IMG/VR virus record: IMGVR_UViG_3300027747_001100
Span: 1 to 57,235 of that record
Reading direction: 5' to 3' (one strand)
DNA from: a virus
DNA: 57,235 nt
Made by a program: the position numbers and the translations under genes. The notes below the pieces were generated by a model that saw nothing but the letters and a program-made list of their open reading frames with translations, did no database searches and was not told where the DNA came from. Shown piece after piece: positions 1-39,866 of the stretch. Every line of letters begins with the position of its first letter. The stretch's first letter is position 1.

Positions 1-1
1 T

Positions 2-26310: not shown

Positions 26311-26423
26311 TTTCTGTGATAGTGGTCTTTTGGGTTATTAATCATTGATTTAATAAGATCATCTATACTAAAGAAGTATTGAATAACTCTTATGCCTTTA
26401 TGCGTGTAAATAGTAAAGCTCAT
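26307..26423 (-). CDS. 38-residue protein, last gene of the leftward region
   Basis: ATG at 26423 overlaps the stop of the upstream 48-residue gene (ATGA). The product begins MSFTIYTHKGIRVIQYFFS and ends DHYHRN. It ends by overlapping the stop codon of the convergent SprT-like gene by a few bases. Support comes only from the coupling and tight fit. The function is unknown. Confidence 0.5.
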   Translation of the reverse strand: MSFTIYTHKGIRVIQYFFSIDDLIKSMINNPKDHYHRN

Positions 26424-26566: not shown

Positions 26567-26804
26567 CTTCTGCAATTAACTTTCTTGCTTTTCTAATCGT
26601 GGCTTTTTGATCTTCTGATAAGGGGAATGGAACAATTTCTTCGGATCCAATTCTATAGTCATTAAGTCCTTGGGTAATAAGACTAATAAGCCCATGTCGG
26701 ACGAGAGTTTCGAGACCTTCTTTATCGAAGTGAATGAGAGCATCAGCCGAACCATCTTTATTTTCCTTAATAATTTGTACAGAAATAGGCACTTTAGTCT
26801 CCAA
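26556..26804 (-). CDS. hypothetical protein of 82 residues
   Basis: The product begins METKVPISVQIIKENKDGSA, has an alpha/beta look and an acidic end (AEDEQ). It overlaps the upstream gene by 11 bases and the downstream 48-residue gene by 11 bases, as in a tightly coupled operon. No family is recognised. It belongs to the last leftward unit, which begins at 29758. Confidence 0.6.
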   Translation of the reverse strand: METKVPISVQIIKENKDGSADALIHFDKEGLETLVRHGLISLITQGLNDYRIGSEEIVPFPLSEDQKATIRKARKLIAEDEQ

Positions 26805-26997
26805 AATGAATAGTAGGTTTTTCTAAGCAATCCAAAGCCCATGATAAGTATTGCTTAACTTCTTCAGGGCTTTCACCGCTCATTGTAGCCGTAGTGTGGC
26901 CTAGCGGCTTTCCAAGTTGATCATAATGAACTTCCCGAATCTCTACGTATGACTCATCCGAGTCACTCATATTAACTAGTCGAAGGTTCCATGTCAT
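26794..26997 (-). CDS. hypothetical protein of 67 residues
   Basis: The product has strands (MTWNLRLVNM, YVEIREVHYDQLGKPLGHTT) followed by a helix (ESPEEVKQYLSWALDCLEKP), a small ferredoxin-like or dsRBD-like beta-alpha layout. It overlaps both neighbours. No known family is recognised. Confidence 0.6.
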   Translation of the reverse strand: MTWNLRLVNMSDSDESYVEIREVHYDQLGKPLGHTTATMSGESPEEVKQYLSWALDCLEKPTIHFGD

Positions 26998-27160
26998 TTT
27001 TTATCTCCTGTTGTACGGTACTAACAGCATCATACACTTGTGAAGTTACAGACAACACATATTTAATGTCATTAGGCGTTAATTGTCCCATCAGTTGTAA
27101 TATTTTAACAACTGCAACATCATTGTCTAATGACATAGGCTTAACTATAGTTTCAATCAT
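26972..27160 (-). CDS. hypothetical helical protein of 62 residues
   Basis: The product is nearly all helical in appearance (DNDVAVVKILQLMGQLTPND, IKYVLSVTSQVYDAVSTVQQ). It overlaps the downstream gene by 26 bases and follows the 83-residue gene by two bases. A role as a small regulatory or inhibitor protein is possible but not supported by any motif. Confidence 0.6.
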   Translation of the reverse strand: MIETIVKPMSLDNDVAVVKILQLMGQLTPNDIKYVLSVTSQVYDAVSTVQQEIKNDMEPSTS

Positions 27161-27162
27161 GA

Positions 27163-27414
27163 TTATATAATTTTCTTTTTGGTTAAAAATTTCTTATAAT
27201 GCATAACAGCTCTGTTTACAATTTGTTTCTGTAAATCGAGTTCTTTTGTTACAACTGCTTGGCTTTTTAGGCGAACTACAACAAGTCGTAAAGACTCTAT
27301 AGTTCGATCTATCCATCGAGGATGCTGCTCAATAAACTCATTAAACAAGTTTGTCCTGTCTTTAATGTTAAGCTTCTTTAGTTTTTCTTCTATGGCTGAC
27401 CAATGCTTAGACAT
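27163..27414 (-). CDS. hypothetical helical protein of 83 residues
   Basis: ATG at 27414 is preceded by AAGGAG at good spacing, so I prefer it to the ATG at 27441. It overlaps the end of the ThyX-like gene by eight bases. The product (MSKHWSAIEEKLKKLNIKDR, WIDRTIESLRLVVVRLK, MHYKKFLTKKKI) is basic and helical. No family is recognised. Confidence 0.65.
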   Translation of the reverse strand: MSKHWSAIEEKLKKLNIKDRTNLFNEFIEQHPRWIDRTIESLRLVVVRLKSQAVVTKELDLQKQIVNRAVMHYKKFLTKKKII

Positions 27415-28336
27415 GAATATGCTCCTTTTTAATTGCATCAATTTGCTCTAATAAGTTCTTTCTAATGGTTTCATATATGTGACCACCTGGAAATTCATCA
27501 CGGCCGATCGGATGGTAAAACTGTTCTTCACACCAGTCAAAGTTGTCATTCTTAGCATTTGGTGGAAATATATTGGTTTTACCTTTGGCAGACTGACGCT
27601 GATAGAATGCATCAGGCTTACGGAAGTCCACAAGGCCTGATAAGAATGGATAGATCTTTAATACTTCTAACCACAACTTCATGGCAATAATATTATCTAC
27701 CGTTGTCTGAATTTGTTCATCACCTCGCATGATGCAGTAGCCAATAAGGTCTTTAATTGTACAGCGTACCATATAAAAGTGTTCAAAATTGCGAGGCATA
27801 ATAGTACGGGCATCAAGGCCGTGAACAAGACCACTATCAAGCATATCAACATACAAATCACGAGCCATTGTGGTAATTTCTCTATATCTGTTAGCAAATT
27901 CTTCATGTACCATAATCCCCGGTTTCATCATTACTCTGTCATCACGCATATCCCTATCACCATGAACTTGGGCCGCAAAACTAAACAGACGATGTCGTAT
28001 TAAATGAGTTGTGTCAATCATATCCATACCATTAACCGACCAAGTGATGTTGATCGTCTCCATGGCAGTAGGTAACAGTTCATACCTAAATAGCTCATCA
28101 ATGGTTTGGTCAATTTGGTCTTTAGGAAAGTCCCATTGAATCTTGTCATTCCATGTGTTTAATAGAAAGACTGATATTGTTTTACGAAACTCTGCAACGG
28201 TAGGTGCATGAACTATTTGTACATCAATGTTTGACAATTGATTTACAAACTCTATTGTCTTAGGTTTTTGCCCAAACTTAAGCTTTGTGTGCATTGGCTG
28301 GAGATTCTTAATCTCTGATTTATGTTTCTTAGGCAT
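27407..28336 (-). CDS. thyX: divergent ThyX-like flavin-dependent thymidylate synthase
   Basis: The product has 309 residues. RHRLFS (Arg114-His115-Arg116, Ser119) matches the RHRxxS signature of ThyX, and DARTIMPRNFEHFY with KDLIGYCIMR (residues about 175-204) matches its C-terminal substrate-binding region. The bases after RHRxxS read FAAQVHGDRD instead of the usual NExSxRY, so the active site departs from the standard form. ThyX makes dTMP from dUMP with FAD, NADPH and methylene-tetrahydrofolate. The changed signature leaves open a related reaction on another pyrimidine. AAAGGAAATT precedes the start. It lies with other nucleotide genes. Confidence 0.78.
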   Translation of the reverse strand: MPKKHKSEIKNLQPMHTKLKFGQKPKTIEFVNQLSNIDVQIVHAPTVAEFRKTISVFLLNTWNDKIQWDFPKDQIDQTIDELFRYELLPTAMETINITWSVNGMDMIDTTHLIRHRLFSFAAQVHGDRDMRDDRVMMKPGIMVHEEFANRYREITTMARDLYVDMLDSGLVHGLDARTIMPRNFEHFYMVRCTIKDLIGYCIMRGDEQIQTTVDNIIAMKLWLEVLKIYPFLSGLVDFRKPDAFYQRQSAKGKTNIFPPNAKNDNFDWCEEQFYHPIGRDEFPGGHIYETIRKNLLEQIDAIKKEHIHV

Positions 28337-28607
28337 TATTAATTTCCTTTAGTCGTAGTTCAACGAGTCTTGCATATCCGGCAATATCGGTCCAGCTATC
28401 GATGTGATCAGGACTTACAGCAAGTCTTGATAACTTCATAACAATCTTAGAGATGTATGTGGCATGAATCGGATGCATAGGCTCACCATGTTGCTTTAGG
28501 TGTCTATCCTTAATAGCTTCAAGTAAGTTAGCCTCAAGCTCAATACCTTCATAGAAATTGCCATATATATTGCCGCGCTCTTCTAGTACTTCATCAGTTG
28601 TAGTCAT
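28329..28607 (-). CDS. DUF6378-like small nucleotide-metabolism protein
   Basis: The product has 92 residues and is helical. It begins with EERGNIYGNFYEGIELEANL and contains SKIVMKLSRLAVSPDHIDSW followed by DIAGYARLVE. I associate this pattern with DUF6378, a family near MazG-type all-alpha pyrophosphohydrolases. The start overlaps the HD phosphohydrolase stop (ATGA). A dNTP-pool role is inferred from motif likeness and neighbours. Confidence 0.65.
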   Translation of the reverse strand: MTTTDEVLEERGNIYGNFYEGIELEANLLEAIKDRHLKQHGEPMHPIHATYISKIVMKLSRLAVSPDHIDSWTDIAGYARLVELRLKEINNA

Positions 28608-29116
28608 TTTGTCACCTTATAAGGTTGCAGTTTCTCTTCCATCTTTTCCATTCTTTTTGTGGTGTTTTTATAAACATCCACCATATAACCAGAATTTCCT
28701 AGACCGATTTCATTAGAAGAATATTGTAGGCATTGAAGTGCATCAGCATAGTGAACTATTAGTGCTTCAGGCGACTCATCATGATACATACGGCAGTAAT
28801 CTTTTACTTGTATAGGAAAGCCTTTATCAATCTCTTTTTCAGCTTCTAATAAAGCAGCTGCTACAGCTGGATAGTTCTTTTTAACCAGATGGTTTACATC
28901 CGAGATCTCCATTTCAGCCAAGTCATGGCATATGGCAATCTTAACCGCTGTATTGACATCAAAAGTATAGTCTTTGGACATCATTAAAACGCCTAGCGCC
29001 ACAAAGAAGCTATGCGTGGCAACAGATTCTTGATGCACAACTGGTTTCATACTGTAACGCTTAGTATGCTCCAATGAATAGCTACGCATAAAGAAATCCA
29101 TGTCTTCATTATTCAT
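28604..29116 (-). CDS. HD-domain 5'-deoxynucleotidase (YfbR-like)
   Basis: The start at 29116 is chosen because AGAGGAG precedes it; a longer reading frame to 29197 has no SD. The product has 170 residues and HD residues: Arg20 region (KRYSMKPVVHQE), His35 (SVATHSFF), His64-Asp65 (ICHDLAEME) and a later Asp in VHYADAL. This is the YfbR pattern. The known reaction removes phosphate from deoxyribonucleoside 5'-monophosphates. With the deoxyribosyltransferase just upstream (eight-base overlap), it would channel dNMPs, perhaps of host DNA, into new nucleosides. Confidence 0.8.
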   Translation of the reverse strand: MNNEDMDFFMRSYSLEHTKRYSMKPVVHQESVATHSFFVALGVLMMSKDYTFDVNTAVKIAICHDLAEMEISDVNHLVKKNYPAVAAALLEAEKEIDKGFPIQVKDYCRMYHDESPEALIVHYADALQCLQYSSNEIGLGNSGYMVDVYKNTTKRMEKMEEKLQPYKVTK

Positions 29117-29567
29117 AGTGCATCTCCTCTGACCCCCAATTACGGCGGTTAAACACACCTGTTTCACGAATCTCATACAAAGCTTTATCAAGTTCATGAT
29201 ATGATCTCACAACTGATCCTGATGCGGCCAATACAAGGTTAAACTTCTGACCAGGCTCTCCGGTTAGCCAAATATACACAATAGGAATACCCATAGCATA
29301 ACACCAGCCGGCCTCAAAGAACGTTCCAGGGTCTTTTCCATCAGTGATACACACCAATAAATTAGTGCAATTAAGAGCTGCAATATTCTCAGTAAGAATA
29401 CCTTCAGGAGTTGTGACACCGGGTTTAAATAAGCATTCATCTTTTGGGCTAAAGTATTTAAGACCGCGGTGTTCTAATATACACTTGGTCTCTTCTATTT
29501 GTTTAAGTTGTTGAGGGTTAAAAAAAGGACCGGCTAAATAAACATACGGATTCTTACCGATCATCAT
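29109..29567 (-). CDS. nucleoside 2-deoxyribosyltransferase
   Basis: The product has 152 residues. It shows YLAGPFF (residues 10-16) at the nucleotide-binding start, DPGTFFEAGWCYAMGIPIV (Asp79 and the likely nucleophile Glu85) and the NLVLAAS substrate-binding loop. The family transfers deoxyribose between bases, or acts as a nucleosidase. It overlaps the coiled-coil AT-hook-like gene by four bases and the HD 5'-deoxynucleotidase by eight, forming one salvage module. Confidence 0.85.
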   Translation of the reverse strand: MMIGKNPYVYLAGPFFNPQQLKQIEETKCILEHRGLKYFSPKDECLFKPGVTTPEGILTENIAALNCTNLLVCITDGKDPGTFFEAGWCYAMGIPIVYIWLTGEPGQKFNLVLAASGSVVRSYHELDKALYEIRETGVFNRRNWGSEEMHYE

Positions 29568-29758
29568 TTTTTCACCACCTTTTTATTCGTTGAGCCTAGT
29601 GGTCTGCCACGTTTCTTGGCTGGCGGCTCTAAATGCTTAAGAATCTTATTTAGTACACTTTCAATAGCGCTAAGCTTAAATGTAAGATCATCAACTGAAT
29701 CGTCTAATGTGTCAAGTCTAAGCTTAATTAAGTCTTTTTCTTCTTTAGTTATAAACAT
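29564..29758 (-). CDS. coiled-coil protein with AT-hook-like tail
   Basis: The product has 64 residues. Residues 3-45 are a heptad coiled coil (DLIKLRLDTLDDSVDDLTFK, AIESVLNKILKHL). The tail PAKKRGRPLGSTNKK contains the AT-hook core RGRP flanked by lysines, which binds the minor groove of AT-rich DNA. A strong AAGGAGAAGG SD precedes it. It is the first gene of the third leftward unit, right behind the paired AAGTAAACA sites, so it could be a small DNA-binding regulator. Confidence 0.65.
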   Translation of the reverse strand: MFITKEEKDLIKLRLDTLDDSVDDLTFKLSAIESVLNKILKHLEPPAKKRGRPLGSTNKKVVKK

Positions 29759-29775: not shown

Positions 29776-29807
29776 AAGTAAACAACTACATTATACACAA
29801 GTAAACA
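29776..29807 (-). promoter_or_regulatory. leftward promoter bracketed by two AAGTAAACA sites
   Basis: On the minus strand TGTTTACTT, then TGTGTATAAT (perfect -10 at 29795-29790), then TGTTTACTT precede the AT-hook-like gene. A third, imperfect inverted copy lies at 29811-29819. No consensus -35 is present. The same arrangement occurs at 36349-36391. Confidence 0.6.
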
Positions 29808-29813
29808 TTACAT

Positions 29814-31181
29814 TTACTTATTTGCGTATTCTTTTATTGCTAGCATTAGTGACTGCTGAGTCTTATCTTTGGAATTAATAGCAGCAACAATTGCTTCATC
29901 AATCGTCTTCTTGGCAATGATTTGATGCACAACAATATTATTTCTTTGTCCTTGTCTCCACAATCTTCGAATAAACTGCTCAAAGATTTCTAATGACCAT
30001 GTATTACTAAACCAAATAACAGCATGACCAGCGCCTTGCAAATTAAGACCGTGGCCTGCTGACTGTGGATGAGCTAGTAATACAGGAGTGTATCCCATGT
30101 TCCATCTATTAATAATACCTGTCATCTTGTCACCAGACACACCAGAACCAATCACAGGGGCATCAGGAAAAAGCTTTTGTAGTCTTTCCAAGTCATGCTT
30201 AAAATGATAACCGATGATGCATGGTTGACCTGACAATTCCTCTACAATATCCGCTACTGCGGTTAGCTTTTCATCATGTATTTCTTGTGTGACTCTTTCT
30301 TCACCGTCTAAATAAATAGCGCCATTAGCAATTTGTTGGCATTTACCGACAGCAACTGCTGCATTCATAGCAGTAACTTGACCATTCTCGATGTCTATCA
30401 ATAACTTATCTTCTAAGTCTTTGTAAAACTTCATTGCTTTTTCAGGCAAATGCACATATACACGATTGTAGATTAGTTCTGGGAGATCCAAGTAATCCTG
30501 AGCTGACATCCGAAGAACTTTGTGTGCCAATGCTTCATGAATTTTTTCTTCTGCTCCGGCTTGTATTTGCCATGTATAACCACCGTAACCAGTCGGATAG
30601 AAGTAGTTAGTTCTAAAATGAGTAATGTACTTTCCAAATGTAGCCCCTCTATCAATAACTAATTGCGGCCCAAATATATCCATTAGACTATTTGGTGCAG
30701 GCGATCCTGTTAAGCCGAACCGCCTTTTAAACTGATCAAGCATTGGTGACAATGCTTTAAATCTTTGAGTTCGTGTATTTTTTAAATAACTAATCTCATC
30801 AACAACAAGCATGTCATATGGCATTTTGATGCCTAAACGTCTAAGAGTTGTGGACAACCATTGCAATCCTTCAAAATTAATAACATGAATTAATGAATTG
30901 TCATGCAGCTTTTTATCTTTTGTAGAACCGTGTAATACGCTGATTGTCATATCATTAAAGTTATCCCATTTCTGAATCTCTTCAGGCCAAACAGCATAGC
31001 ATGGTCGTAATGGTGCAAGAATTAATACTTTACTAATGGCATTTGCTGCTTTTAGAATCTTAATGGCTTCTAATGTAATAGAGGTTTTGCCAAGCCCTGG
31101 GTCAAGCCATAACTGACCTGATCCATTCTCAACTAAGAACTTAACCGCGTTTTGCTGATACTGATGCGGATTCCAGAGCAT
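29814..31181 (-). CDS. SNF2/DEAD-type helicase
   Basis: The product has 455 residues. It shows Walker A DPGLGKTS (residues 27-34, Lys32), motif II VVDEISYL (Asp128-Glu129, a DExx variant of DEAH), motif III GLTGSP (157-161), motif V GHGLNLQGA and motif VI QFIRRLWRQGQ (about 402-412). This is a superfamily 2 ATPase close to phage SNF2-like helicases. Likely roles are replication fork remodelling, recombination or strand displacement. AGAGGAA precedes the start, which overlaps the VRR-NUC gene by 41 bases; a nuclease-helicase pair is common in phages. Confidence 0.85.
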   Translation of the reverse strand: MLWNPHQYQQNAVKFLVENGSGQLWLDPGLGKTSITLEAIKILKAANAISKVLILAPLRPCYAVWPEEIQKWDNFNDMTISVLHGSTKDKKLHDNSLIHVINFEGLQWLSTTLRRLGIKMPYDMLVVDEISYLKNTRTQRFKALSPMLDQFKRRFGLTGSPAPNSLMDIFGPQLVIDRGATFGKYITHFRTNYFYPTGYGGYTWQIQAGAEEKIHEALAHKVLRMSAQDYLDLPELIYNRVYVHLPEKAMKFYKDLEDKLLIDIENGQVTAMNAAVAVGKCQQIANGAIYLDGEERVTQEIHDEKLTAVADIVEELSGQPCIIGYHFKHDLERLQKLFPDAPVIGSGVSGDKMTGIINRWNMGYTPVLLAHPQSAGHGLNLQGAGHAVIWFSNTWSLEIFEQFIRRLWRQGQRNNIVVHQIIAKKTIDEAIVAAINSKDKTQQSLMLAIKEYANK

Positions 31182-31449
31182 TCGTAATTTCCTCTTTTGT
31201 TCTTAGTATTAAGACTGTATGATTAAGTGATCTAAGCATTTCATGTATTAGTTTTTGACGTTCAGACACAATGCCTGTTAGCGTCTTAAGTTCCACCCAT
31301 AAAACTTTACCAAGCAAAATAACAACACGGTCAGGCCAACCTGTACTGAAACGCAAATGTAACTTAACTGCATTGAGCTTAAGCCTTTTAGCTTCTTTAC
31401 TAAAGTGCCTTTCAAGATCTCTCTCCAGAACTTTTTTTACCACTTGCAT
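31141..31449 (-). CDS. VRR-NUC domain nuclease
   Basis: ATG at 31449 gives 102 residues; a further ATG at 31488 is possible but would overlap the upstream gene by 52 bases. The pattern GWPDRVVILLGKVLWVELKT, G-SERQKLIHEMLR is the VRR-NUC core of the PD-(D/E)XK fold: Asp in PD, Glu and Lys in VELK, Gln in the following helix. Members cut branched DNA or flaps. It is translationally coupled to the SNF2-type helicase and the Cas4-like nuclease. Confidence 0.8.
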   Translation of the reverse strand: MQVVKKVLERDLERHFSKEAKRLKLNAVKLHLRFSTGWPDRVVILLGKVLWVELKTLTGIVSERQKLIHEMLRSLNHTVLILRTKEEITNALESASVSAKRG

Positions 31450-32078
31450 GGGCCACCGTTTGATTTGCGGTAGTGGCACCATTTGCATAGCATGGAAGGA
31501 TTGGGGGCAAACACTTTATCTTTTTCGATTGTACTAATTCTGTTTTTAAGCTGTATTTGTAAGACAGGTAGCTCTTTTCTGGTAAGTGTTTTATACTTAT
31601 CAGTTTTAGCAAGATCAATGAACTCAATAACATTTTCAACCTCTTCAATTTCAGGCATTGTTGACAAAATTACTGTAGAATAAACTGAAACTTGGTCTGT
31701 ATAGTCACGATGCTTACCTGATTTAAAGTCTAATACAGTGGCTTTGGTAGGCTCATCTTTAATAAATAAGTCGATAATGCCACGAAACATAGCAGATTTG
31801 TCATCAAACGGTACAGGTTCCCATTTATCAGTAACTGCAAATTCCATTTCAGACTGTGCGTTTACTTTAATCCAGTTATCTAGTTTGTCTGATAAGTACT
31901 GAATCTCTTTAGATAAAAGATTTAATCCGCCTTTAAGAACTGTTTCAATCTCTGAATGTAATTGCTTACCACGATTAGCTGCTTCTCCAGATGGCTCAGG
32001 GATTTTATCTATTCGGCCAAGCTTATACTTCAGTGGGCACTGCTCATAAGTCTTTATTGCCGAATAAGAATACGTCAT
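31437..32078 (-). CDS. Cas4/RecB-like PD-(D/E)XK nuclease with Cys cluster
   Basis: The product has 213 residues. It shows an N-terminal Cys (YEQCPLKYKL), RGKQLHSEIE (His of the RecB family), FRGIIDLFI (Asp), VLDFKSGK (Asp, Lys) and DQVSVYS (QxxxY), in order. Its C-terminus has CKWCHYRKSNGGPC. The four cysteines resemble the 4Fe-4S site of Cas4 and AddB. Such proteins are 5'-3' exonucleases. No CRISPR array is present, so it probably acts in phage recombination or DNA degradation. It overlaps the polymerase gene by four bases (ATGA). Confidence 0.85.
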   Translation of the reverse strand: MTYSYSAIKTYEQCPLKYKLGRIDKIPEPSGEAANRGKQLHSEIETVLKGGLNLLSKEIQYLSDKLDNWIKVNAQSEMEFAVTDKWEPVPFDDKSAMFRGIIDLFIKDEPTKATVLDFKSGKHRDYTDQVSVYSTVILSTMPEIEEVENVIEFIDLAKTDKYKTLTRKELPVLQIQLKNRISTIEKDKVFAPNPSMLCKWCHYRKSNGGPCKW

Positions 32079-33901
32079 TTAACCTCCGAAAAATTGTTTC
32101 CGACTTTAGCTTCTGCTATAAGCGGTACATCAAGTGTAAATGCATGAACCATACAATGCTCCAACTTCTTAGCTTCACGTTCTACTACATCTTCTTGAAC
32201 AGTAATGATTAGTTCATCATGTAAAGACAGCAATAATCGACTGTTCTCTGCTATTCTATAATAGTCGATCATAGCCTGCTTAGCCATATCAGCGCCTGAC
32301 CCTTGGATCAGCGTATTTAATGACTTAAAGCCAAATTCCATCATCTTGCCATTAATTAGCTTAGGCGGTTCACCTTTGACTAATCTACCACCAATAGTAG
32401 AAAATGGCGTTCTTAGCTTGTATCGTTTATTTAAGTCATCATTAATCTTTACTAGGCCAGATGCTACCTCAGTCTTATACAAATCAACCAATTGCTTAGC
32501 TTCTGTATATGTGATCTTAAGCATTTCACTAATCTTCTTAGGTCCAGCGCCATACAAAATACCAAATGATAGTGTCTTGGCATAGTCACGAATAACAAGT
32601 CTGCCTGCTTTTTCCGACATCAGATTGGCAGCAAAGGTGTGTAAATCAGCCATTGGGTCTTGTCTGTATTGCTCAGCTAACTTACCGTCCTCAAAGTGTG
32701 CAAATAACCGTAGCTCTTGAGCTTGGAAATCGCATGCTACCATCTTATGGCCTTCATCAGGTAAGATAAATGACCTGACTTTAGGTATAATTAGATCATG
32801 AATTTCAGAGGGCAGAGGAGTCTTTGGGCCTCGTGTAGGCATGGTCTGAAGTGTAGGCTTAGCCGATAGACGGCCTGTTCTAGTACCACCAACTTCACCT
32901 CTAACCGTGTTCCACTCTGTATAGATTCGGCCAGTGCCTTCAGACTGTTCTAACCACGGCTCTACATATGTGCCAGTTAACTTAACAAGCACATCACGAT
33001 GCCTTAAGACAGATGCTAAATCCAGATCAGTTACTAGATCTGCAAGTGTATCTTTATCTGATAGAGCTGTGCCTTTAGCACTAGTTGGCCATTCTTTTGT
33101 CTTATCATAACAACCTTTATCTTTAATGATTTGAACAAGTTGAGCACCAGAATTATAGTTAATATCATTGACATTAAAGTATTTATCCAGCCACTTATGG
33201 CATTGCAAAATATCTGCATTAGCCTTGTCTAGACATGCCTGTAATCCATCCCTATCAACTCGGACACCTAGCATAGAGTTTTCCAATAAAACTGGCATAA
33301 GCTCTATTTCACGAAGGTATGCTTCTGGCATATCCTCACGGACTTCCAATGTATGGTCAAACAGTTTGGCTGTTAAAGTTACGTCAGCTAAGGCGTACTT
33401 ACCTACCAGATCAGCAGGACCACGTGCAATGAAAGCACCTGCAGACTTAGGCTTTTTAGCCACGGCCGGCACATTGGCCACCAGCCATTCAAAGAGTTCA
33501 TCACGTTCTTCTGGTTGTATTCCTAACCACTCAACACATAGTTCTTTCAGGGACAAGCTACGAACATATGGATCATGCAGAAAGGCCAATACAAGAGTAT
33601 CATGTACTCTTTCAGGTTGTGGAAATAGCATACCAAACCGTTCTATAATCACTGCCATATCAAACATGGCATTATGAAAGCATATACTTCTGCCTGATTC
33701 CCATATACGTTGTATCAGTCTGTGTACAGTCTCATATGTACAGTTATTGTTATGGTCATGACCAAATGCCCAATACTTAGTTTCGAACTGGCCTGTTTTA
33801 TCAAGGACCGCCAGTCCAACCGGCTTAGGGGGGTATTCCTTAGGCCGTGGACCAATTGCTTCTGTTTCAAAGTCTAAAAAGATAGGATCTGTCATTACCA
33901 T
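32075..33901 (-). CDS. polA: family A DNA polymerase with 3'-5' exonuclease
   Basis: The product has 608 residues with no 5'-3' exonuclease domain. Exonuclease motifs are DFETE (Asp10, Glu12), HNAMFD (Asn77, Asp81) and YALAD (Tyr169, Asp173). Polymerase motifs are A (CDFQAQELRLF, Asp391), B (RDYAKTLSFGILYG, Arg438, Lys442, Phe446, Tyr450) and C (LHDEL, His561-Asp562-Glu563). All are intact. Phe446 in motif B corresponds to the Phe of E. coli Pol I that disfavours dideoxynucleotides, unlike T7's Tyr. This is the replicative polymerase. An ATG at 33895 is an alternative start, overlapping the lipoprotein stop. Confidence 0.95.
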   Translation of the reverse strand: MVMTDPIFLDFETEAIGPRPKEYPPKPVGLAVLDKTGQFETKYWAFGHDHNNNCTYETVHRLIQRIWESGRSICFHNAMFDMAVIIERFGMLFPQPERVHDTLVLAFLHDPYVRSLSLKELCVEWLGIQPEERDELFEWLVANVPAVAKKPKSAGAFIARGPADLVGKYALADVTLTAKLFDHTLEVREDMPEAYLREIELMPVLLENSMLGVRVDRDGLQACLDKANADILQCHKWLDKYFNVNDINYNSGAQLVQIIKDKGCYDKTKEWPTSAKGTALSDKDTLADLVTDLDLASVLRHRDVLVKLTGTYVEPWLEQSEGTGRIYTEWNTVRGEVGGTRTGRLSAKPTLQTMPTRGPKTPLPSEIHDLIIPKVRSFILPDEGHKMVACDFQAQELRLFAHFEDGKLAEQYRQDPMADLHTFAANLMSEKAGRLVIRDYAKTLSFGILYGAGPKKISEMLKITYTEAKQLVDLYKTEVASGLVKINDDLNKRYKLRTPFSTIGGRLVKGEPPKLINGKMMEFGFKSLNTLIQGSGADMAKQAMIDYYRIAENSRLLLSLHDELIITVQEDVVEREAKKLEHCMVHAFTLDVPLIAEAKVGNNFSEVK

Positions 33902-34170
33902 AACCTGTGTCTAGGAATACATTGAACATCGATAATAATGTCGGACAACATGCCTGACACATTACGCTTGGACATTACCGGAGAAGCTCTCATGCCAGCA
34001 CTTTCACAATCAAGTGTAGCTGATATAACTTCTTGTCGACTCATTTGCTGAACTTGTGCTTCATACCGAAGCTGTACAGCAGGTGCTGTAATGTTCATTG
34101 GAATGTTAGGTGGTGGTGTTGAACTACATGCAGCTAATGCAAGACTACTTAAAATTATTATTTTTTTCAT
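33895..34170 (-). CDS. small predicted lipoprotein
   Basis: The start at 34170 follows AAAGGAAATGGT and yields 91 residues. It begins MKKIIILSSLALAACSSTPP: a basic tip, hydrophobic core and lipobox LAAC with Cys15, a signal peptidase II signal. The mature part (QVQQMSRQEVISATLDCESA) is polar. A lipoprotein placed between the single-strand-binding-like and polymerase genes rather than in the lysis cassette suggests a superinfection-exclusion or envelope-modifying role, which is inferred only. A longer frame to 34293 lacks an SD. Confidence 0.75.
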   Translation of the reverse strand: MKKIIILSSLALAACSSTPPPNIPMNITAPAVQLRYEAQVQQMSRQEVISATLDCESAGMRASPVMSKRNVSGMLSDIIIDVQCIPRHRLW

Positions 34171-34231
34171 ACCATTTCCTTTATGTAGGTGGGGTACTCG
34201 CTCCGTGATGCTTTCCCCCGTCAAACCTATG

Positions 34232-35011
34232 TTAGTATTTTTTTGATGCTTCAACAGTTGGAGCAACATCAGGTATGTCAGTGTCTTCAACACCTGCAGT
34301 AGCTACAGCATTTCCCATTTCCTCTTCACCACGTGCAATTAATGCCTGCACAATAGCTAGATCATCAATAGTTCTTACAAACTTAAATTGCAGTTTAAAC
34401 TGAGTTTTTGGATCAGGAACAATAGAGATATTGGTTACAACCGCTGACAATGGCCGCTTTGTAGCTGATGCTACGGTTTGCAAGTAGGTTGCAAAACCAC
34501 GAACACTGGTGACAGGAGTGCGTAATGCTGCAACTTCTGCCATCTTTACAGCCTCAACCGAACCAATTGAGTCAGCCGTTGTAATTAGTAACCTGCGCTT
34601 TTCAGCACAAGCTTTACCTTTACCACCGTTGGCCGCACTACCCCATTGGTCTTTAGGGCAGTTAGCACACATTTCTGATTGTGGCTCTGGTGATGTAGGA
34701 TTAGGTTTAAGACCTGTCAATGTAGGACCAACTGCATAGCATACAGGAGGAGACGGGTTGGTTGGATCATAGCGTTGTGTATAGTACAAGCGCTCTACAG
34801 GTGATGCAATGATCACAACATCTAATGAATTGCCTGCAATAGGCTCATCACGGTATGTCAATGTTCCACCTTTAGCACTTAAAAATACTGTGCCTGCTGT
34901 ACTACGCTCTGCCAACATACTTTGGCTTGCTAGCTTTTGTAATTGGTCTTCAAATACAGTTAATTCTGCTGCTGGTTTGGCATTCTGTGTTGCCGGACTA
35001 GTTTTGCTCAT
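34232..35011 (-). CDS. possible single-stranded DNA-binding protein
   Basis: The product has 259 residues. Its N-terminal third includes FLSAKGGTLTYRDEPIAGNS, a beta barrel-like stretch. The cysteine cluster CANCPKDQWGSAANGGKGKA-C (around residues 118-140) could bind metal. Later strands (VVTNISIVPDPKTQFKLQFK) are followed by an acidic/Thr tail. It lies upstream of polymerase and next to a small coiled-coil gene, as ssDNA-binding proteins do in phage replication modules. The assignment rests on context, and no OB-fold signature is certain. Confidence 0.5.
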   Translation of the reverse strand: MSKTSPATQNAKPAAELTVFEDQLQKLASQSMLAERSTAGTVFLSAKGGTLTYRDEPIAGNSLDVVIIASPVERLYYTQRYDPTNPSPPVCYAVGPTLTGLKPNPTSPEPQSEMCANCPKDQWGSAANGGKGKACAEKRRLLITTADSIGSVEAVKMAEVAALRTPVTSVRGFATYLQTVASATKRPLSAVVTNISIVPDPKTQFKLQFKFVRTIDDLAIVQALIARGEEEMGNAVATAGVEDTDIPDVAPTVEASKKY

Positions 35012-35026
35012 TTGCGTAATTCCTTC

Positions 35027-35401
35027 TTAGTTGCGTGATGCACGTACAGATAATTCCCAGACTTCTGATGTTGAGGTGCCTGGGATTCCCTCTCCTGAGC
35101 TTAACCGGTCTTTAAAAGCGGTTGAGCTAAGTCTTTTGTGTAGCAAATCAAAGCTTCTTGTTTCTGCTATATACTTATAAAATGCATCCCAATCAGTAAT
35201 AATAGGGTGCGTCTTTTTATTCATTGCAACTGAATGACCGTCTTCTGTAGCTGCTTTGGTAGTACCTACCTCGGACATAGCATGCATAATATCGGCTTCA
35301 AGTCTTGCAGCTTCTTTAGATAAATCACTGTCTTTAGCTGATAGTTCAGTGCGTTGACGTTTAACATCAACAAGTTTATTAATTAGTTCAGTAAGATTCA
35401 T
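35027..35401 (-). CDS. conserved-type coiled-coil protein of the replication module
   Basis: The product has 124 residues. Residues 1-45 are a coiled coil (MNLTELINKLVDVKRQRTEL, DLSKEAARLEADIMHAMSEV). It then has DWDAFYKYIAETRSFDLLHK, RLSSTAFKDRL and a short C-terminal strand. I have seen the WDAFYxYI-FDLLxxRL pattern in phage replication regions, without a known function. It overlaps the deaminase gene by four bases and precedes the ssDNA-binding-like gene. Confidence 0.65.
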   Translation of the reverse strand: MNLTELINKLVDVKRQRTELSAKDSDLSKEAARLEADIMHAMSEVGTTKAATEDGHSVAMNKKTHPIITDWDAFYKYIAETRSFDLLHKRLSSTAFKDRLSSGEGIPGTSTSEVWELSVRASRN

Positions 35402-35847
35402 AGTAAGTCCGTTAAAGAGTAGTAGTTAGTTTTGACTTGTGCTTCTTTAAACATTTCATTGGCTAATTCAAACGACTTTTGCCAACGTTCTGGTTGATAT
35501 GACAATGACACATGGCGCTTAATGCCTGCTTGTATAGCCATGGCTGCACATTCAGAACAGCATTGCATAGGAAACGTATAAAGTGTGCAATCTTTTAATG
35601 ATTGCTTAGCAAATAAAATTGCATTACGCTCAGCATGTAAAGTGATTGCATACTTTAGTTCACGGTTGTTTAAGCGTGACTCTGTATCTGCAACGCCTTT
35701 AGGAAAGCCGTTAAAGCCTACACTAACAATTTCATTGTCTGCATTTACAATCACTGCGCCACATTGAGTTGATGGGTCTTTTGACCATGATGCCACAACC
35801 TTAGCCATGTCAAGATAGCGCTTATTCCATTTAAGTTCGTTATGCAT
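35398..35847 (-). CDS. dCMP deaminase-type zinc enzyme
   Basis: The product has 149 residues. It shows QCGAVIVN (residues 28-35), HAERNAILFA (His71, Glu73) and PMQCCSEC (Cys97, Cys100), the zinc-binding HxE and CxxC of cytidine/deoxycytidylate deaminases. FNGFPKGV is typical of the dCMP deaminase substrate loop. It would make dUMP from dCMP, feeding the ThyX-like enzyme. The start overlaps the upstream gene stop by eight bases. Confidence 0.88.
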   Translation of the reverse strand: MHNELKWNKRYLDMAKVVASWSKDPSTQCGAVIVNADNEIVSVGFNGFPKGVADTESRLNNRELKYAITLHAERNAILFAKQSLKDCTLYTFPMQCCSECAAMAIQAGIKRHVSLSYQPERWQKSFELANEMFKEAQVKTNYYSLTDLL

Positions 35848-36319
35848 TTAGCATCCAATCAGGTGCATAAGCATTATCTCTATTCCATTTCATAGACATA
35901 ATGTTTTTCTTATGGCGATAATATTGACGGTATGCTTGTACAGTATCATCAGCTTTACATTCATCTGGCATGCATTGTGGTGGGTTAGTCCAGCCGCCAA
36001 ATGTAAGCGTATCTGGTGCAGTGCTTAACTCGTTTTTTAGAATAGCTTCGCATGCATGAGTTTTGCCATAGCGCTTTGTGTATTCTTTACATAAAGCAAT
36101 AGCTAGGTCATAAACATAGTTGTAATGCAGCTTAGATGATCGTGTCCAGATAGCAGACGGATGATTTTTATGTGTAGGCTTATATGAAACTGGATGACCG
36201 TGTTCATGATGTGCAGTTGCTAATAACTGTGCTGACTCTATAATCATTTTGACTACATGCTTATCGCAATGGAATATAGCAGCCATTTTGGCATTGGAAT
36301 GTAAGAAGAAGATATTCAT
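35840..36319 (-). CDS. conserved phage protein (pyrimidine-dimer glycosylase-like annotation uncertain)
   Basis: The product has 159 residues. It begins MNIFFLHSNAKMAAIFHCDK and shows HVVKMIIESAQLLATAHHEH, THKNHPSAIWTRSS and WTNPPQCMPDECK. These HxxH and DKHVVKM patterns recur in proteins of large marine and freshwater phages. Some are labelled pyrimidine-dimer DNA glycosylase or simply conserved. I can support only the recurring family pattern. It is the first gene of the second leftward unit, behind the paired AAGTAAACA promoter. Confidence 0.6.
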   Translation of the reverse strand: MNIFFLHSNAKMAAIFHCDKHVVKMIIESAQLLATAHHEHGHPVSYKPTHKNHPSAIWTRSSKLHYNYVYDLAIALCKEYTKRYGKTHACEAILKNELSTAPDTLTFGGWTNPPQCMPDECKADDTVQAYRQYYRHKKNIMSMKWNRDNAYAPDWMLNA

Positions 36320-36348
36320 AAGTTTAGCCTTTTAGTATTTAAGAAGTG

Positions 36349-36391
36349 AAGTAAACATATTTATTATACACATGTTCTGACAAAGTAAACA
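36349..36391 (-). promoter_or_regulatory. leftward promoter bracketed by two AAGTAAACA sites
   Basis: Minus-strand TGTTTACTT at 36391-36383, TGTGTATAAT with the -10 at 36368-36363, and TGTTTACTT at 36357-36349 sit upstream of the 35840-36319 gene. The TGTGTATAAT is identical to that at 29.79 kb. Confidence 0.6.
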
Positions 36392-36832
36392 TTATCTTGT
36401 AGTGTTTAAAAGCAATAAAGCGATGTGGTCTTCAGGGCCTGTCCAGCCTTCTGGCTTCTGAGCATCTTGCTTATGACCTCTACGAGTGGTACCAGGAACC
36501 TTCTGCATGTTCGCCATGTGTACGATTTCAAGGATCTTAGGTAACGGTAATCCCATATGATGAGCACACCCCATGGCCACATAAGATAAGTCTGCTAATG
36601 CATCAGCTGCCGCCACCAGATCACCGTCTTCATGCGCTTTTAATAGCTCGGATAGTTCTTCCATAAGAAACCTGGCATAAAAACTAATGTCCTGAGGTTC
36701 TAAAAGCTGAGACTTGTGGTTTACAGGTAAGTTTAGTTTGGTTCTAAATTCACGAACTTTATCAAACATTGCTTGATCAGTCAATGAGACGCGTTGTGCA
36801 TCTATGCGGTCTTCAGTTGTAAAAGTAGTCAT
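36392..36832 (-). CDS. MazG-like/phosphoribosyl-ATP pyrophosphohydrolase-type NTP pyrophosphatase
   Basis: The product has 146 residues. FLMEELSELLKAHEDGDLVA (EExxE) followed by ADALADLSYVAMG (D-x-x-D) is the metal-binding core of the all-alpha NTP pyrophosphohydrolases. A later helix is HMANMQKVP. It probably hydrolyses dNTPs or modified nucleotides, fitting the dNTP-pool genes around it. It shares an ATGA overlap with the upstream 60-residue gene. Confidence 0.8.
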   Translation of the reverse strand: MTTFTTEDRIDAQRVSLTDQAMFDKVREFRTKLNLPVNHKSQLLEPQDISFYARFLMEELSELLKAHEDGDLVAAADALADLSYVAMGCAHHMGLPLPKILEIVHMANMQKVPGTTRRGHKQDAQKPEGWTGPEDHIALLLLNTTR

Positions 36833-37011
36833 TTCTCTTGTGCCTTTCCAGTTACTAATTCATCAATTAGCCTTAACTCAGTTTTCAACGCCTCTATTTC
36901 AGCTTGTTGCTGGCGTATAAAGTTGGCATAGTGTTGGAACGGCTTAGCTTTTGCACCGTCTTGTAGCCAATGAATAGACTCTAGTTCTTCTGCTATTTCA
37001 TTTGCATTCAT
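36829..37011 (-). CDS. small coiled-coil protein of 60 residues
   Basis: The product reads MNANEIAEELESIHWLQDGA, then a coiled-coil helix (FIRQQQAEIEALKTELRLID) and GKAQEK. It is coupled by ATGA overlaps to the small membrane protein above and the MazG-like gene below. The function is unknown. Confidence 0.65.
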   Translation of the reverse strand: MNANEIAEELESIHWLQDGAKAKPFQHYANFIRQQQAEIEALKTELRLIDELVTGKAQEK

Positions 37012-37127
37012 TTCTTTTCACCTCGCCATATCTGATACATAATGTATGACATAATAAATAATGGCGTTGTAAATACGCCAAGCATAAAGCATAGAAACAA
37101 CACAGTAAGTAAATTAACTTCAAACAT
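37008..37127 (-). CDS. 39-residue single-pass membrane protein
   Basis: ATG at 37127 opens a frame MFEVNLLTVLFLCFMLGVFT, TPLFIMSYIMYQIWRGEKK, one long hydrophobic segment with a basic tail, predicted to put the C-terminus in the cytoplasm. The stop overlaps the next ATG (ATGA). AAAGGCAATAAC precedes the start. Fit and coupling make it a believable gene. Confidence 0.7.
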   Translation of the reverse strand: MFEVNLLTVLFLCFMLGVFTTPLFIMSYIMYQIWRGEKK

Positions 37128-37128
37128 G

Positions 37129-37401
37129 TTATTGCCTTTGACTTGGAATGCGGTTAAGAATCTTTTCGACTAAATCTTTGCAAACATCAAAGTCATCTTT
37201 TAGCCAGTCCGTGTATTCTTCAACCAGTTTAGCACATGCTTCACGCTCCATTAGCACTGCTTGCTTTACTGTGTCAATAGCAAATGCCATAATCTCAGTT
37301 TTAGCTTCTTCAAGAGCATCATCAAACTCTTTTTGCGTAAATAATGTAGCTTGTGTACCTTTAGCAAAGAACTGCTTTTGGAAATCATTCATCTCCGCCA
37401 T
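37129..37401 (-). CDS. helical hypothetical protein of 90 residues
   Basis: GAAGGAGAAGCTAA precedes ATG 37401; ATG 37392 is a possible alternative. The helices FDDALEEAKTEIMAFAIDTV and MEREACAKLVEEYTDWLKDD dominate. The MEREACAKxxE pattern recurs in many short phage proteins of unknown role. It overlaps the upstream gene by 17 bases. Confidence 0.65.
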   Translation of the reverse strand: MAEMNDFQKQFFAKGTQATLFTQKEFDDALEEAKTEIMAFAIDTVKQAVLMEREACAKLVEEYTDWLKDDFDVCKDLVEKILNRIPSQRQ

Positions 37402-37807
37402 TTAGCTTCTCCTTCTTCTTTTTAATAGGCTTTTGTGTCTCAATTACATCAGGCATAGATGTAGATTCTTGTGGGACAGGCACAGGATCTGATGGAGCCA
37501 ATGTAATTATTTCAATAGGCTCAGGTTCAGGGCTTTCAAGATCAGTAGCTTGTACAACATCAAGAGGCGAAATATCACGTGGCTTTACTTGTAATGGCTC
37601 AAAGTCTATATCTTCTGCATCAAGTACGTCTTGTATTTCTTTTAGCAATGATTTGCCAATCGGTACAAAGCATAGTGGTGTAACAGGCAAGCCTGTTGGG
37701 CTAACTACTGACACCAATACAGTATCTTCCGGTATGATGCGACTATGTGCCATTGCTTCAGCTTTACTTGCAAGACCGCCGAATATTACTAGTTCTTTAA
37801 GCTTCAT
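37385..37807 (-). CDS. hypothetical protein with Pro/Glu-rich tail
   Basis: The product has 140 residues. An alpha/beta N-terminal part (MKLKELVIFGGLASKAEAMA, TVLVSVVSPTGLPVT) runs to about residue 65. It is followed by an acidic Pro-rich tail (DLESPEPEPIEIITLAPSDP) and a Lys-rich end (KKKKEKLNG), probably disordered. No family is recognised. It lies two bases after the small membrane gene. Confidence 0.6.
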   Translation of the reverse strand: MKLKELVIFGGLASKAEAMAHSRIIPEDTVLVSVVSPTGLPVTPLCFVPIGKSLLKEIQDVLDAEDIDFEPLQVKPRDISPLDVVQATDLESPEPEPIEIITLAPSDPVPVPQESTSMPDVIETQKPIKKKKEKLNGGDE

Positions 37808-37808
37808 T

Positions 37809-37937
37809 TTATTTTCCTGTTGTGATTTGAACTTGTTTTACTTTAGCAAAAGCAATATCAACTGCTTCAGCTACACCTGTGATGCCATATGTTGTTATGC
37901 AAAAGCCAACAACCATTCCAATTATAAAATTAAACAT
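37809..37937 (-). CDS. 42-residue single-pass membrane protein
   Basis: GGTGGAGAAAAA precedes ATG 37937. The product begins MFNFIIGMVVGFCITTYGIT and continues GVAEAVDIAFAKVKQVQITT, a membrane segment followed by an amphipathic tail. The stop lies one base before the next start. Good SD, tight spacing and the hydrophobic pattern support it. Confidence 0.7.
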   Translation of the reverse strand: MFNFIIGMVVGFCITTYGITGVAEAVDIAFAKVKQVQITTGK

Positions 37938-38088
37938 TTTTTCTCCACCAATGAATTGTTTTACGACGACCATACTTTAAACGAAGCTTAAATGCATGAT
38001 AATAGTTAAAAATCTTAATGACTGTTTTGTGTTGACGACGCATTGATGCCATACGTGTTTTAGCATACCGCGTTCTAATTATTCCCAT
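37930..38088 (-). CDS. 52-residue strongly basic protein
   Basis: ATG at 38088 lies inside the phosphoribosyltransferase gene end (10-base overlap). The product begins MGIIRTRYAKTRMASMRRQH, ends GRRKTIHWWRKNV, and is dominated by Arg, Lys and His with aromatics. Such a composition suggests nucleic acid binding. There is no clear SD, so expression would rely on coupling. Moderate confidence only. Confidence 0.55.
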   Translation of the reverse strand: MGIIRTRYAKTRMASMRRQHKTVIKIFNYYHAFKLRLKYGRRKTIHWWRKNV

Positions 38089-38471
38089 GGAAACACCAAC
38101 CAATTGTCTAAGCGCATTTTCTTACCGTAAAAATCTAATTGATCTAATCCAACATTGTGATACAACACAGCAAACTGAGTCATAGGGTTAACTTGTTTTA
38201 AGTCTTGCATTGTTTTACCGGTGTCATAGATCTCGTCTATAATCAGTGTTTTCTCAGCTAATGAAATAGGCAATATAGCATCTTCTTTAGTGATAGCCAT
38301 CATAGGTAGTTCAAGCCGATGTGATAACATTACAGCAGGAATAAGACCGCCTCTTGTAACACCTGCAATCATTTCAAACTTTTCGCCTGAATCTTTAATT
38401 TGCTTTTGTATAACATCTAAAAGCTCATTAATTTCAGTCCAACTAACAAATGTTTTATTCTTTTTAGTCAT
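38079..38471 (-). CDS. type I phosphoribosyltransferase
   Basis: The product has 130 residues. TLIIDEIYDTGKTM is the PRPP-binding signature of type I phosphoribosyltransferases (here IIDE instead of the usual DD), and AGVTRGGLIPAVMLSHRLEL is the N-terminal PPi-loop region. Closest in appearance are small hypoxanthine/xanthine phosphoribosyltransferases. It would convert free base plus PRPP to a nucleotide, another salvage step. It overlaps the 67-residue gene by four bases. Confidence 0.8.
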   Translation of the reverse strand: MTKKNKTFVSWTEINELLDVIQKQIKDSGEKFEMIAGVTRGGLIPAVMLSHRLELPMMAITKEDAILPISLAEKTLIIDEIYDTGKTMQDLKQVNPMTQFAVLYHNVGLDQLDFYGKKMRLDNWLVFPWE

Positions 38472-38671
38472 AGCAATTCCTTTTTAAGAGCAATTACAGT
38501 TTCTTCTAAATTACCGTGTGGTTGCTTACTTTCAACAATACCAATAGCAACCATTGCTACATGGCGCCAAGCTTCATCCCATACCGCTTTAGGTTCTTGA
38601 AGTAAGTCTTCTGCATTAGCAGTCTTTAAAAGCTTATTCCAATCTTCAAAGTGCTGTTCCCATTTTTGCAT
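38468..38671 (-). CDS. hypothetical helical protein of 67 residues
   Basis: The product reads MQKWEQHFEDWNKLLKTANA, then AVWDEAWRHVAMVAIGIVES and a last helix. It has no membrane segment long enough to span. The four-base overlap with the phosphoribosyltransferase gene shows coupling. The family is not recognised. Confidence 0.6.
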   Translation of the reverse strand: MQKWEQHFEDWNKLLKTANAEDLLQEPKAVWDEAWRHVAMVAIGIVESKQPHGNLEETVIALKKELL

Positions 38672-38672
38672 G

Positions 38673-38954
38673 TTATATAAGCCCCAAGTATTTCATACCT
38701 TTAGTTGTAACAGAACAGTTTTTAACTCTATTATCTTCTGCTTCTTGCGTAACTTTAATGAACCCATTATCTCTAAGCCATTTTAGTTGCGTGTAAATAG
38801 ATGCACTGTTTTGAACGCCTTCTGTTGTGCCTCTAAGCATGACATTAGTAACTGTCATAACACCTTCATCCATGACCATGTCTAAAAGTATTTCAGCAGC
38901 ATAATGCATATCATGCTGTTTTCGTTTACGATGCCAATGTATTGGTGATGTCAT
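38673..38954 (-). CDS. winged-helix protein (MarR/PadR-like), candidate regulator
   Basis: ATG 38954 after AAAGGTTTGT gives 93 residues. The sequence HYAAEILLDMVMDEGVMTVT, NVMLRGTTEGVQNSASIYTQ, LKWLRDNGFIKVTQEAEDNR, VTTKGMKYL has the helix-turn-helix-wing layout of a winged-helix regulator. Early position in the leftward unit suggests it may control phage transcription. It is a candidate reader of the AAGTAAACA sites, which is inferred only. Confidence 0.65.
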   Translation of the reverse strand: MTSPIHWHRKRKQHDMHYAAEILLDMVMDEGVMTVTNVMLRGTTEGVQNSASIYTQLKWLRDNGFIKVTQEAEDNRVKNCSVTTKGMKYLGLI

Positions 38955-38962
38955 ACAAACCT

Positions 38963-39064
38963 TTAAAAAGATAAAAATAAAACTATAAACAAATACACCG
39001 CAACCACACCAAGTGCAGTTGCGGCTATAAACTGAATGCCGGTGAGTTCTTTTACTGGTCCCAT
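38963..39064 (-). CDS. 33-residue single-pass membrane protein
   Basis: AAGGAAGGTTACCAGG precedes ATG 39064, which overlaps the upstream gene end by 13 bases. The product MGPVKELTGIQFIAATALGV, VAVYLFIVLFLSF is a short head followed by one continuous hydrophobic helix. The good SD supports it. Confidence 0.65.
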   Translation of the reverse strand: MGPVKELTGIQFIAATALGVVAVYLFIVLFLSF

Positions 39065-39324
39065 CCTGGTAACCTTCCTTTTTTAGTAAACAATAATTTA
39101 GGCGGCTTATCTTGTGAATATTGTGAATAGCCATATAGCTCAAGTTCATAATGAAGACGAGCTTCATCTTCGTCAGTGCTACTGAAGACTAGTTCATCAT
39201 TTTCAAAAACACCATAGCCTTCTTTGTTTTCTTCTTCGGTGTGCCAGTACCAAGCGTCTTCGTTTAAGTAACGAACTGATAAATTTTCATATGATTCCAA
39301 TACTTTGCCGTCGTGCTTATGCAT
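39052..39324 (-). CDS. acidic hypothetical protein of 90 residues
   Basis: The product is acidic and aromatic-rich (LNEDAWYWHTEEENKEGYGV, SSTDEDEARLHYELELYGYS). It may be a DNA-mimic-type or inhibitor protein, but this is only suggested by charge. The start overlaps the upstream gene by eight bases. Confidence 0.6.
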   Translation of the reverse strand: MHKHDGKVLESYENLSVRYLNEDAWYWHTEEENKEGYGVFENDELVFSSTDEDEARLHYELELYGYSQYSQDKPPKLLFTKKGRLPGWDQ

Positions 39325-39523
39325 GATCTTCCTCTACTGTGATGTTATATGTTTTGCCTTGTAAGTCTTTTATTTTAAATGTTTTCTTAGATGATACAAG
39401 AGAACCATTTGTGTCGGTGTCGTATGTAGTAACACCGATTGCTAGGATCATCTTTTCTTTATCTAACATTGACAAACCCTGTTTTATAACATGAGTTATA
39501 TAGTCGCAATATGCCATTTTCAT
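39317..39523 (-). CDS. hypothetical protein of 68 residues
   Basis: AAGGAGTCTATT precedes ATG 39523, which I prefer to the longer frame to 39583 that has no SD and would overlap the 41-residue gene. The product starts MKMAYCDYITHVIKQGLSML and has strands toward the end (KKTFKIKDLQGKTYNITVEE). No family is recognised. Confidence 0.65.
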   Translation of the reverse strand: MKMAYCDYITHVIKQGLSMLDKEKMILAIGVTTYDTDTNGSLVSSKKTFKIKDLQGKTYNITVEEDHA

Positions 39524-39533
39524 AATAGACTCC

Positions 39534-39659
39534 TTAGAATAAGCAAGAAACAAACCAAACGATTGCGGAATAAATACATACATCAGCTATAAAATAGCAA
39601 GGGAAATACTTTTGGCCAAATACGCGTTTTTGTGTGAGGTTATAAATGATTTTGTTCAT
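39534..39659 (-). CDS. 41-residue small membrane protein, first gene of the leftward block
   Basis: AAAGGACTTAACTATC precedes ATG 39659. The product begins MNKIIYNLTQKRVFGQKYFP and ends CYFIADVCIYSAIVWFVSCL-F, a basic head then a hydrophobic segment. It lies next to the divergent control region, so it is likely the first expressed of the leftward genes. Function unknown. Confidence 0.65.
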   Translation of the reverse strand: MNKIIYNLTQKRVFGQKYFPCYFIADVCIYSAIVWFVSCLF

Positions 39660-39866
39660 GATAGTTAAGTCCTTTAGAAGTTAAGAAAAGCTACTACAAG
39701 AGCATAGTACCATAAGTTTTTAGTATATTTACATTATTTTATAAATTTATAAGATATTTCACTATATGACAAAAGTAAACATTTTGTTCGATAAATGAGA
39801 AAAGTAAACAGTTTCATGATACAGTGCTTCTTATGGCTTCGGCCATATAACTTAAAGGAAACTAAA
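39660..39866. promoter_or_regulatory. divergent control region
   Basis: About 207 bases separate the leftward block (start 39659) from the rightward genes (start 39867). It is very AT-rich, with a TATAAATTTATA palindrome near 39740-39751, two AAGTAAACA sites (39773-39781 and 39802-39810) and a UUCG hairpin (39832-39847). Promoters for both directions should lie here, but no good -35/-10 pair is seen, so exact starts are not assigned. Confidence 0.65.
39832..39847 (+). promoter_or_regulatory. UUCG-tetraloop hairpin in the 5' leader
   Basis: TATGGC, loop TTCG, GCCATA: a perfect six-pair stem with a very stable UUCG loop, seven bases before the AAAGGAA ribosome site of the 39867 gene. In phage T4 such hairpins occur in leaders and operators. 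A role in mRNA stability or translational control is inferred. Confidence 0.7.

Follow-up and report, generated by a model that had tools for sequence, protein, structure and literature searches.

Paired promoter boxes and a candidate winged-helix regulator in a lineage of uncultured freshwater phages

What reads the nine-base word that stands in pairs ahead of gene units in the virus record IMGVR_UViG_3300027747_001100, and does its reader silence or switch on the promoters so marked? The record is marked complete, and all of its 57,235 bases (hereafter the window) were analysed. The word, AAGTAAACA, has six exact copies in the window, all on the plus strand and all within the 2,256 bases of intergenic DNA; no further exact copy lies on either strand. 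On the promoter strand it reads TGTTTACTT, with the core TGTTTACT. A previous reading by a model, made from the sequence alone (the sequence-only reading), had reported two copies before each of three leftward units (sites 1 to 3) and suggested a dedicated regulator or a host factor. All six copies were found exactly at the positions it gave, and the exact motif count it had proposed as a check returned six of six copies in intergenic DNA and zero in genes. Sequence comparison with relatives indicates that the boxes almost certainly belong to a real and lineage-specific operator system.

Dinucleotide shuffles of the window led us to expect 1.16 copies of AAGTAAACA, and none of 100 shuffles reached six. 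The word was also the top intergenic 9-mer of the window, with three copies for the runner-up. When one mismatch was allowed, the count was at chance level (28 versus 29 expected), and therefore it is the exact word that matters. Because a single mismatch drops the count to chance, the window alone was suggestive, and the relatives decide.

A search of IMG/VR with the DNA polymerase of the window yielded 41 related loci (69–98% identity), the closest relative being L007. In these polymerase-fetched relatives TGTTTACTT recurs ahead of the same genes, and the typical promoter reads TGTTTACTT, 14 bases, TATAAT, 5 bases, TGTTTACTT. Of 43 non-redundant promoters, 35 had a TGTTTACT beginning between −26 and −22 relative to the first base of the −10 element, and 23 had one beginning precisely at +11; these sets include pattern-fetched loci and a few rows reading the wrong strand of a true promoter. 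When the count was confined to polymerase-fetched loci, a downstream box was accompanied by an upstream copy with at most one mismatch in 16 of 16 non-redundant promoters; permuted motifs put through the same test, 332 in number, averaged 0.53 and never exceeded 8. The core was intergenic in 67 of 103 copies, in 26 non-redundant loci including the window, and ranked first of 336 permutations (median 1). At promoter distance from a −10-like word lay 64 of 75 copies of the 9-mer, the other 11 being elsewhere; near-duplicate loci had been removed by hand before both of these counts. Among polymerase-fetched loci, at least two half-sites (up to one mismatch) were present in 26 of 27 site 1 regions and 19 of 23 site 2 regions, counts that have no chance control.

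The arrangement has variants. Some downstream boxes have an inverted partner 1–2 bases further on, which gives a near-palindrome. Some promoters depart from the typical arrangement in having an inverted partner in the spacer (TGTTTACT-N2..5-AGTAAACA), which gives a near-palindrome upstream, and one class fills the spacer between −35 and −10 with a palindrome. In L027, L028, L034 and the L038 group an additional gene lies ahead of the start, and the boxed promoter stands upstream of it. Intergenic TGTTTACTTTAGGTAC was also observed beside CTGCAGAG repeats in L134, L137 and L141, with no TAYAAT behind it.

How far does the pattern extend? Among 2.9 million viral contigs, the two-box promoter pattern was found in 57 stretches on 53 contigs (hand count; four contigs gave two), and all 57 belong to this lineage: each had been fetched with the polymerase already or encodes four or more relatives of window proteins. 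The reversed-word control pattern returned one stretch from the same contigs. A chance origin of the boxes was rejected by the shuffle, intergenic-word, permuted-word and reversed-motif controls. In 84,980 bacterial and archaeal genomes the pattern gave five matches, none with a window homologue, versus about seven expected by chance at 40% G+C (hand estimate). A separate set of 30 stretches contained 25 from the lineage; those outside were L102, L118, L119, L120 and L126, and L119 had one helicase-type match at 23%. The nearest named phages by terminase were MW202545 (Manatee Spring; 62%) and Caulobacter phage RW (45%). Over the 50,000 bases scanned in the former (of 57,457), TGTTTACT occurs once, within a gene, and the scanned part of the latter has none. 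Together, the fixed geometry in the relatives and the lineage specificity strongly support the idea of a dedicated regulon, and the system appears to travel with the replication module of the lineage. No account of this box system was found in the open-licence literature searched.

Site 2 shows the canonical arrangement. Its upstream box TGTTTACTT (36383..36391, minus strand) starts 23 bases before the −10 and covers the −35 place, the −10 is TATAAT (36363..36368, minus strand), and the downstream box TGTTTACTT (36349..36357, minus strand) starts at +11 from it. Behind it lies the replication unit (29814..36319, minus strand), with a phrog_624 protein, dCMP deaminase, DUF7307, DNA polymerase, a PD-(D/E)XK nuclease and an SNF2-type helicase. 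At site 1 the downstream box TGTTTACTT (29776..29784, minus strand) is likewise at +11 from TATAAT (29790..29795, minus strand), over the predicted transcription start. The second box TGTTTACTT (29799..29807, minus strand) starts 12 bases before the first base of the −10, in a middle slot and in direct orientation, and the −35 slot is empty. Site 1 leads the nucleotide-metabolism unit (26420..29758, minus strand), which encodes an AT-hook-like protein, nucleoside 2-deoxyribosyltransferase, an HD/YfbR-like protein, DUF6378, ThyX and small genes. The identical minus-strand box that had been described inside these two pairs was confirmed as TGTGTATAAT, with one copy per pair in the window (29790–29799 and 36363–36372), the first overlapping a box at base 29799. 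A missing −35 had also been suggested. This holds for site 1, where the best match has two of the six letters of TTGACA, but not for site 2, where the box itself contains TTTACT (four of six letters) at a 15-base spacing.

At site 3 the pair does not stand before a leftward unit in the manner of sites 1 and 2. Both boxes are on the minus strand; the distal one (39773..39781) starts 47 bases before a probable rightward −10, and the AGTAAACA (39803) of the proximal one (39802..39810) starts 17 bases before it. This −10, TACAGT (39820..39825, plus strand), was placed by homology with the boxed rightward promoters of L010, L022, L032 and L038, and lies 9 bases past the second box. The probable −10 of the leftward early operon, TACTAT after TGG (39704..39709, minus strand), is 63 bases from the nearer box and has no box at promoter distance. 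In the same four relatives the third-region box lies 22–23 bases before the rightward −10, and, again as in the window, no box stands at promoter distance from their leftward early promoter, behind which lies the winged-helix gene described below. By this homology site 3 more likely serves the rightward promoter, whose unit (39867–43323, plus strand) encodes a small protein, DUF932 and a primase/helicase, although the boxes in the window point the opposite way from those of the relatives. The regulon would then consist of two leftward units and one rightward unit rather than the three leftward units first suggested, with the leftward early operon outside it. The AT-rich palindrome reported at this site is present (TTATAAATTTATAA, 39739–39752). 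In the rightward site 3 promoters of the four relatives, and in L139, a palindrome TGTGGNAACACA replaces the second box downstream of the −10; it is possibly another operator. The unboxed leftward early promoters of L022 and L032 share a block, GTGTACAATGCAACTGTGCTCAGGCACA, at and after the −10.

Which protein might read the boxes? The ends of the window (1–145 and 57091–57235) overlap with 95.2% identity over 145 bases, by which it probably represents an entire genome. Its products include a large terminase, a capsid protein, a GroES-like protein, DNA polymerase, an SNF2-type helicase, a primase, ThyX, MazG and further nucleotide enzymes. Forty-five distinct window proteins were scanned against Pfam or PHROGs (about 28 of the approximately 73 genes, mainly structural, were outside the scan), and no RNA polymerase, sigma factor, integrase or CI-type repressor was found among them. 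A regulatory RNA was rejected as an explanation, the window having neither an Rfam match nor a tRNA. The reader is very probably encoded by the phage itself, judging from the confinement of the boxes to the lineage, and it is probably the 93-residue winged-helix, MarR-like protein encoded at 38673..38954 (minus strand), which is predicted to bind them. This gene was present in nine of nine non-redundant early-region loci; of the other window proteins, MazG alone was detected in every one of the nine. The winged-helix gene was present in five of five near-full-length relatives and in none of four lineage fragments of 17–35 kb; all eight non-lineage records, two with a related terminase and six further contigs, were without it. 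It had no named-phage relative in the phage collection, in which the best identity for the DNA polymerase was 32%.

Domain searches with this protein gave a sub-threshold Pfam match to PadR (PF03551; 19.9 bits, cut-off 27) and weaker winged-helix matches, and at an E value of 0.1 neither the MarR nor the MotA model of Pfam matched it. MarR-type chains in the PDB matched weakly by sequence (best E 0.0011). The AlphaFold2 model, built from an alignment of 14 relatives (some near-duplicates), had a pLDDT (predicted local distance difference test) of 91.1 and ends past a short helix at residues 84–89. Its top matches among solved structures were MarR-family proteins, several of them DNA complexes (e.g., MepR and AbfR; Foldseek E 2.4e-5), and comparison with MarR folds (VIA) gave Z up to 12.2 with a root-mean-square deviation of 3.8 over 88 aligned residues. 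Conservation (nine of nine and five of five) and the predicted fold thus favour the winged helix that the sequence-only reading had put forward.

The other candidates fared less well. A 64-residue protein with an AT-hook-like stretch, KKRGRPLGS (29564–29758), had been named beside the winged helix; its gene is confined to the window and L007, and since the boxes occur throughout the lineage and the gene in two members, it cannot be the general reader. We give a low probability to a reading in which another phage protein, such as a late-region protein or the phrog_624 protein (35840–36319), recognizes the boxes. The phrog_624 family carries the label 'DNA binding protein', its gene is the first one behind site 2, and it was found in eight of nine early-region loci; in the remaining one, the fragment L077, the site 2 unit yielded no gene at all. 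Its structural model was poor (pLDDT 71.0), with no fold match at E 0.001 or better, and the 45 scanned proteins included no other clear helix-turn-helix regulator, sub-threshold matches being seen in the probable small terminase (43537–43980). Phages often employ host factors, and the boxes could be the site of a host transcription factor that these phages adopted. This is improbable: no other lineage among the 2.9 million viral contigs has the two-box pattern (although so strict a pattern would overlook a host regulon made up of single degenerate sites), the matches in the 84,980 genomes are near the hand-estimated chance level, and MW202545, the 62% terminase relative, shows just its one genic core. 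Highly improbable, in our view, is that the boxes are mere promoter parts, a lineage-specific −35 combined with a start-region preference, with no regulator at all. The box does contain TTTACT, and 18 of 23 downstream-box promoters are within two mismatches of TTGACA at a spacer of 15–19, versus 24% of random positions, in a set that was partly pattern-fetched. Such a preference would leave the 9-base word at +11, the inverted partners and the spacer boxes unexplained, and early promoters of the same phages work without a box.

Our best explanation overall, held tentatively and at somewhat under even confidence, is that the winged helix represses the boxed promoters through paired half-sites; its binding, the sign of its effect and its timing are predictions. 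In this scheme the boxes would be operator half-sites (core TGTTTACT) embedded in promoters of the host sigma-70 type, whose −10 is good and whose −35 is poor or overlapped by the box. The regulator, likely the winged helix, would be made from the leftward early operon, whose own promoter is unboxed, and would bind pairs of half-sites over the −35 region or spacer and over the start site. Once accumulated, it would reduce transcription at site 2 (the replication unit), site 1 (nucleotide metabolism) and site 3 (the rightward promoter of the primase). As for the net effect, we lean towards repression: the half-sites of the common classes lie between about −37 and +8 in the usual numbering, within the RNA-polymerase footprint, and repression is favoured because both boxes fall within it. 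The upstream slot seems dispensable, since at site 1 the −35 place is unoccupied, and a fixed start-site box together with a dispensable upstream slot fits a repressor.

The chief rival, which we regard as unlikely, is activation of the T4 MotA kind. Here the winged helix, made early, would sit on the upstream box, take over the role of the −35 and bring host polymerase to middle promoters, with the downstream box in a secondary or autoregulatory role. In favour of this, the centre of the upstream box falls at about −31 (usual −10 numbering), close to the position of the MotA box in T4 (−30; PMC6024815), the window sites have no good −35 elsewhere, and the winged-helix gene lies in an unboxed early operon and has replication genes among its putative targets. 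There is also a weak fold match to a MotA activation domain, at rank 50 among viral matches (E 0.019), although any generic winged helix might give one. Against activation, MotA promoters as PMC6024815 describes them have nothing comparable to the box fixed at +11 (23 of 43 promoters), site 1 of the window has no upstream slot, the distance of the upstream box spreads over five positions, and in one promoter class a palindrome occupies the spacer between −35 and −10. The MotA-type arrangement (a box near −30, a −10 and no −35) was found in 35 of 43 promoters and at site 2, but not at site 1. Both modes could also be combined. A single 93-residue protein with a MarR core would read single half-sites in either orientation, in slots at −25, −13 and +11 that lie about 12 bases or a multiple apart, activating from upstream when scarce and blocking the start site when abundant. 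We consider this a long shot; if true, slot-reading by one protein would cause the replication and nucleotide genes to be expressed as one timed pulse.

Several observations weigh against repression by the winged helix. Control of replication genes by an early activator would be a more natural logic than control by an early repressor. The phrog_624 protein, conserved throughout the lineage like the replication genes, may instead be the reader. Outside L007 the winged helix is just 26–43% identical to that of the window, yet the box hardly changes, and the putative recognition helix (residues 50–62) has a conservation of 0.58 versus 0.51 for the whole protein, the first helix being more conserved (0.64). 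MarR proteins dimerise through extra N- and C-terminal helices, for which 93 residues seem too few; the model appears to lack such helices. The spacing of half-sites varies, from 1–5 bases in palindromes to 12, 23 or 34 between box starts, which is odd for one rigid dimer. Finally, 24 of 43 promoters have no TGn before the −10.

Other repeats and genes were observed in the window. Between the primase and small-terminase genes (43230–43510) lies an array of TTTGTAACC / GTTACAAA with partly 11-base spacing, and many TGTAAC/GTTACA copies, as in this array, occur at 2618–2990 of L137; the array possibly consists of origin iterons or the sites of a second regulator. A GroES-like chaperonin gene (52904–53326) lies in the structural region, as it does in Caulobacter phage RW and MW202545.

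With these results, a lineage of uncultured freshwater phages gains a control code: an operator word, a promoter geometry, target units and one small candidate protein. The timing of its replication genes, with no own RNA polymerase or sigma factor seen in the scanned proteins, becomes a testable question, and in metagenomes the two-box pattern can serve as a highly specific DNA marker of the lineage.

How does the system compare with known ones? Lambda-type repressors use multiple operator sites that overlap the promoter core, as the boxes do here. Unlike those, operator spacing is variable in this lineage, and neither an integrase nor a CI-type repressor was among the scanned proteins. The word of the T4 MotA box differs from the box of the lineage. 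Among MarR regulators, MepR and AbfR resemble the candidate in the winged-helix core of its predicted model, their solved DNA complexes being among the best fold matches; unlike them, the 93-residue protein lacks a Pfam MarR match at E 0.1. A Caulobacter phage regulator was set aside as a model, being described as an XRE protein that acts on host genes (PMC10688885). The MotA/AsiA middle promoters of T4, as presented in PMC6024815, share with the boxed promoters an early phage protein (here a candidate), the host polymerase and a box near −30 in place of the −35, and differ in that a second box lies over the start site here. The T7 protein Gp5.7, a winged helix of MarR-like fold, represses promoters of the phage that the host polymerase uses (PMC5569994). 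Like the candidate it is small, phage-encoded and MarR-like, and it acts at the −35 region of those promoters; unlike what is proposed here, it also binds RNA polymerase and has a weak affinity for DNA, and the account in PMC5569994 describes no paired dedicated operator word, whereas the boxes here are paired. Conservation of the gene together with boxed promoters, as a Gp5.7-type system would have it, was found in nine of nine early-region loci. If binding and sign are as predicted, the system would belong with phage-encoded small winged-helix control of host-type promoters.

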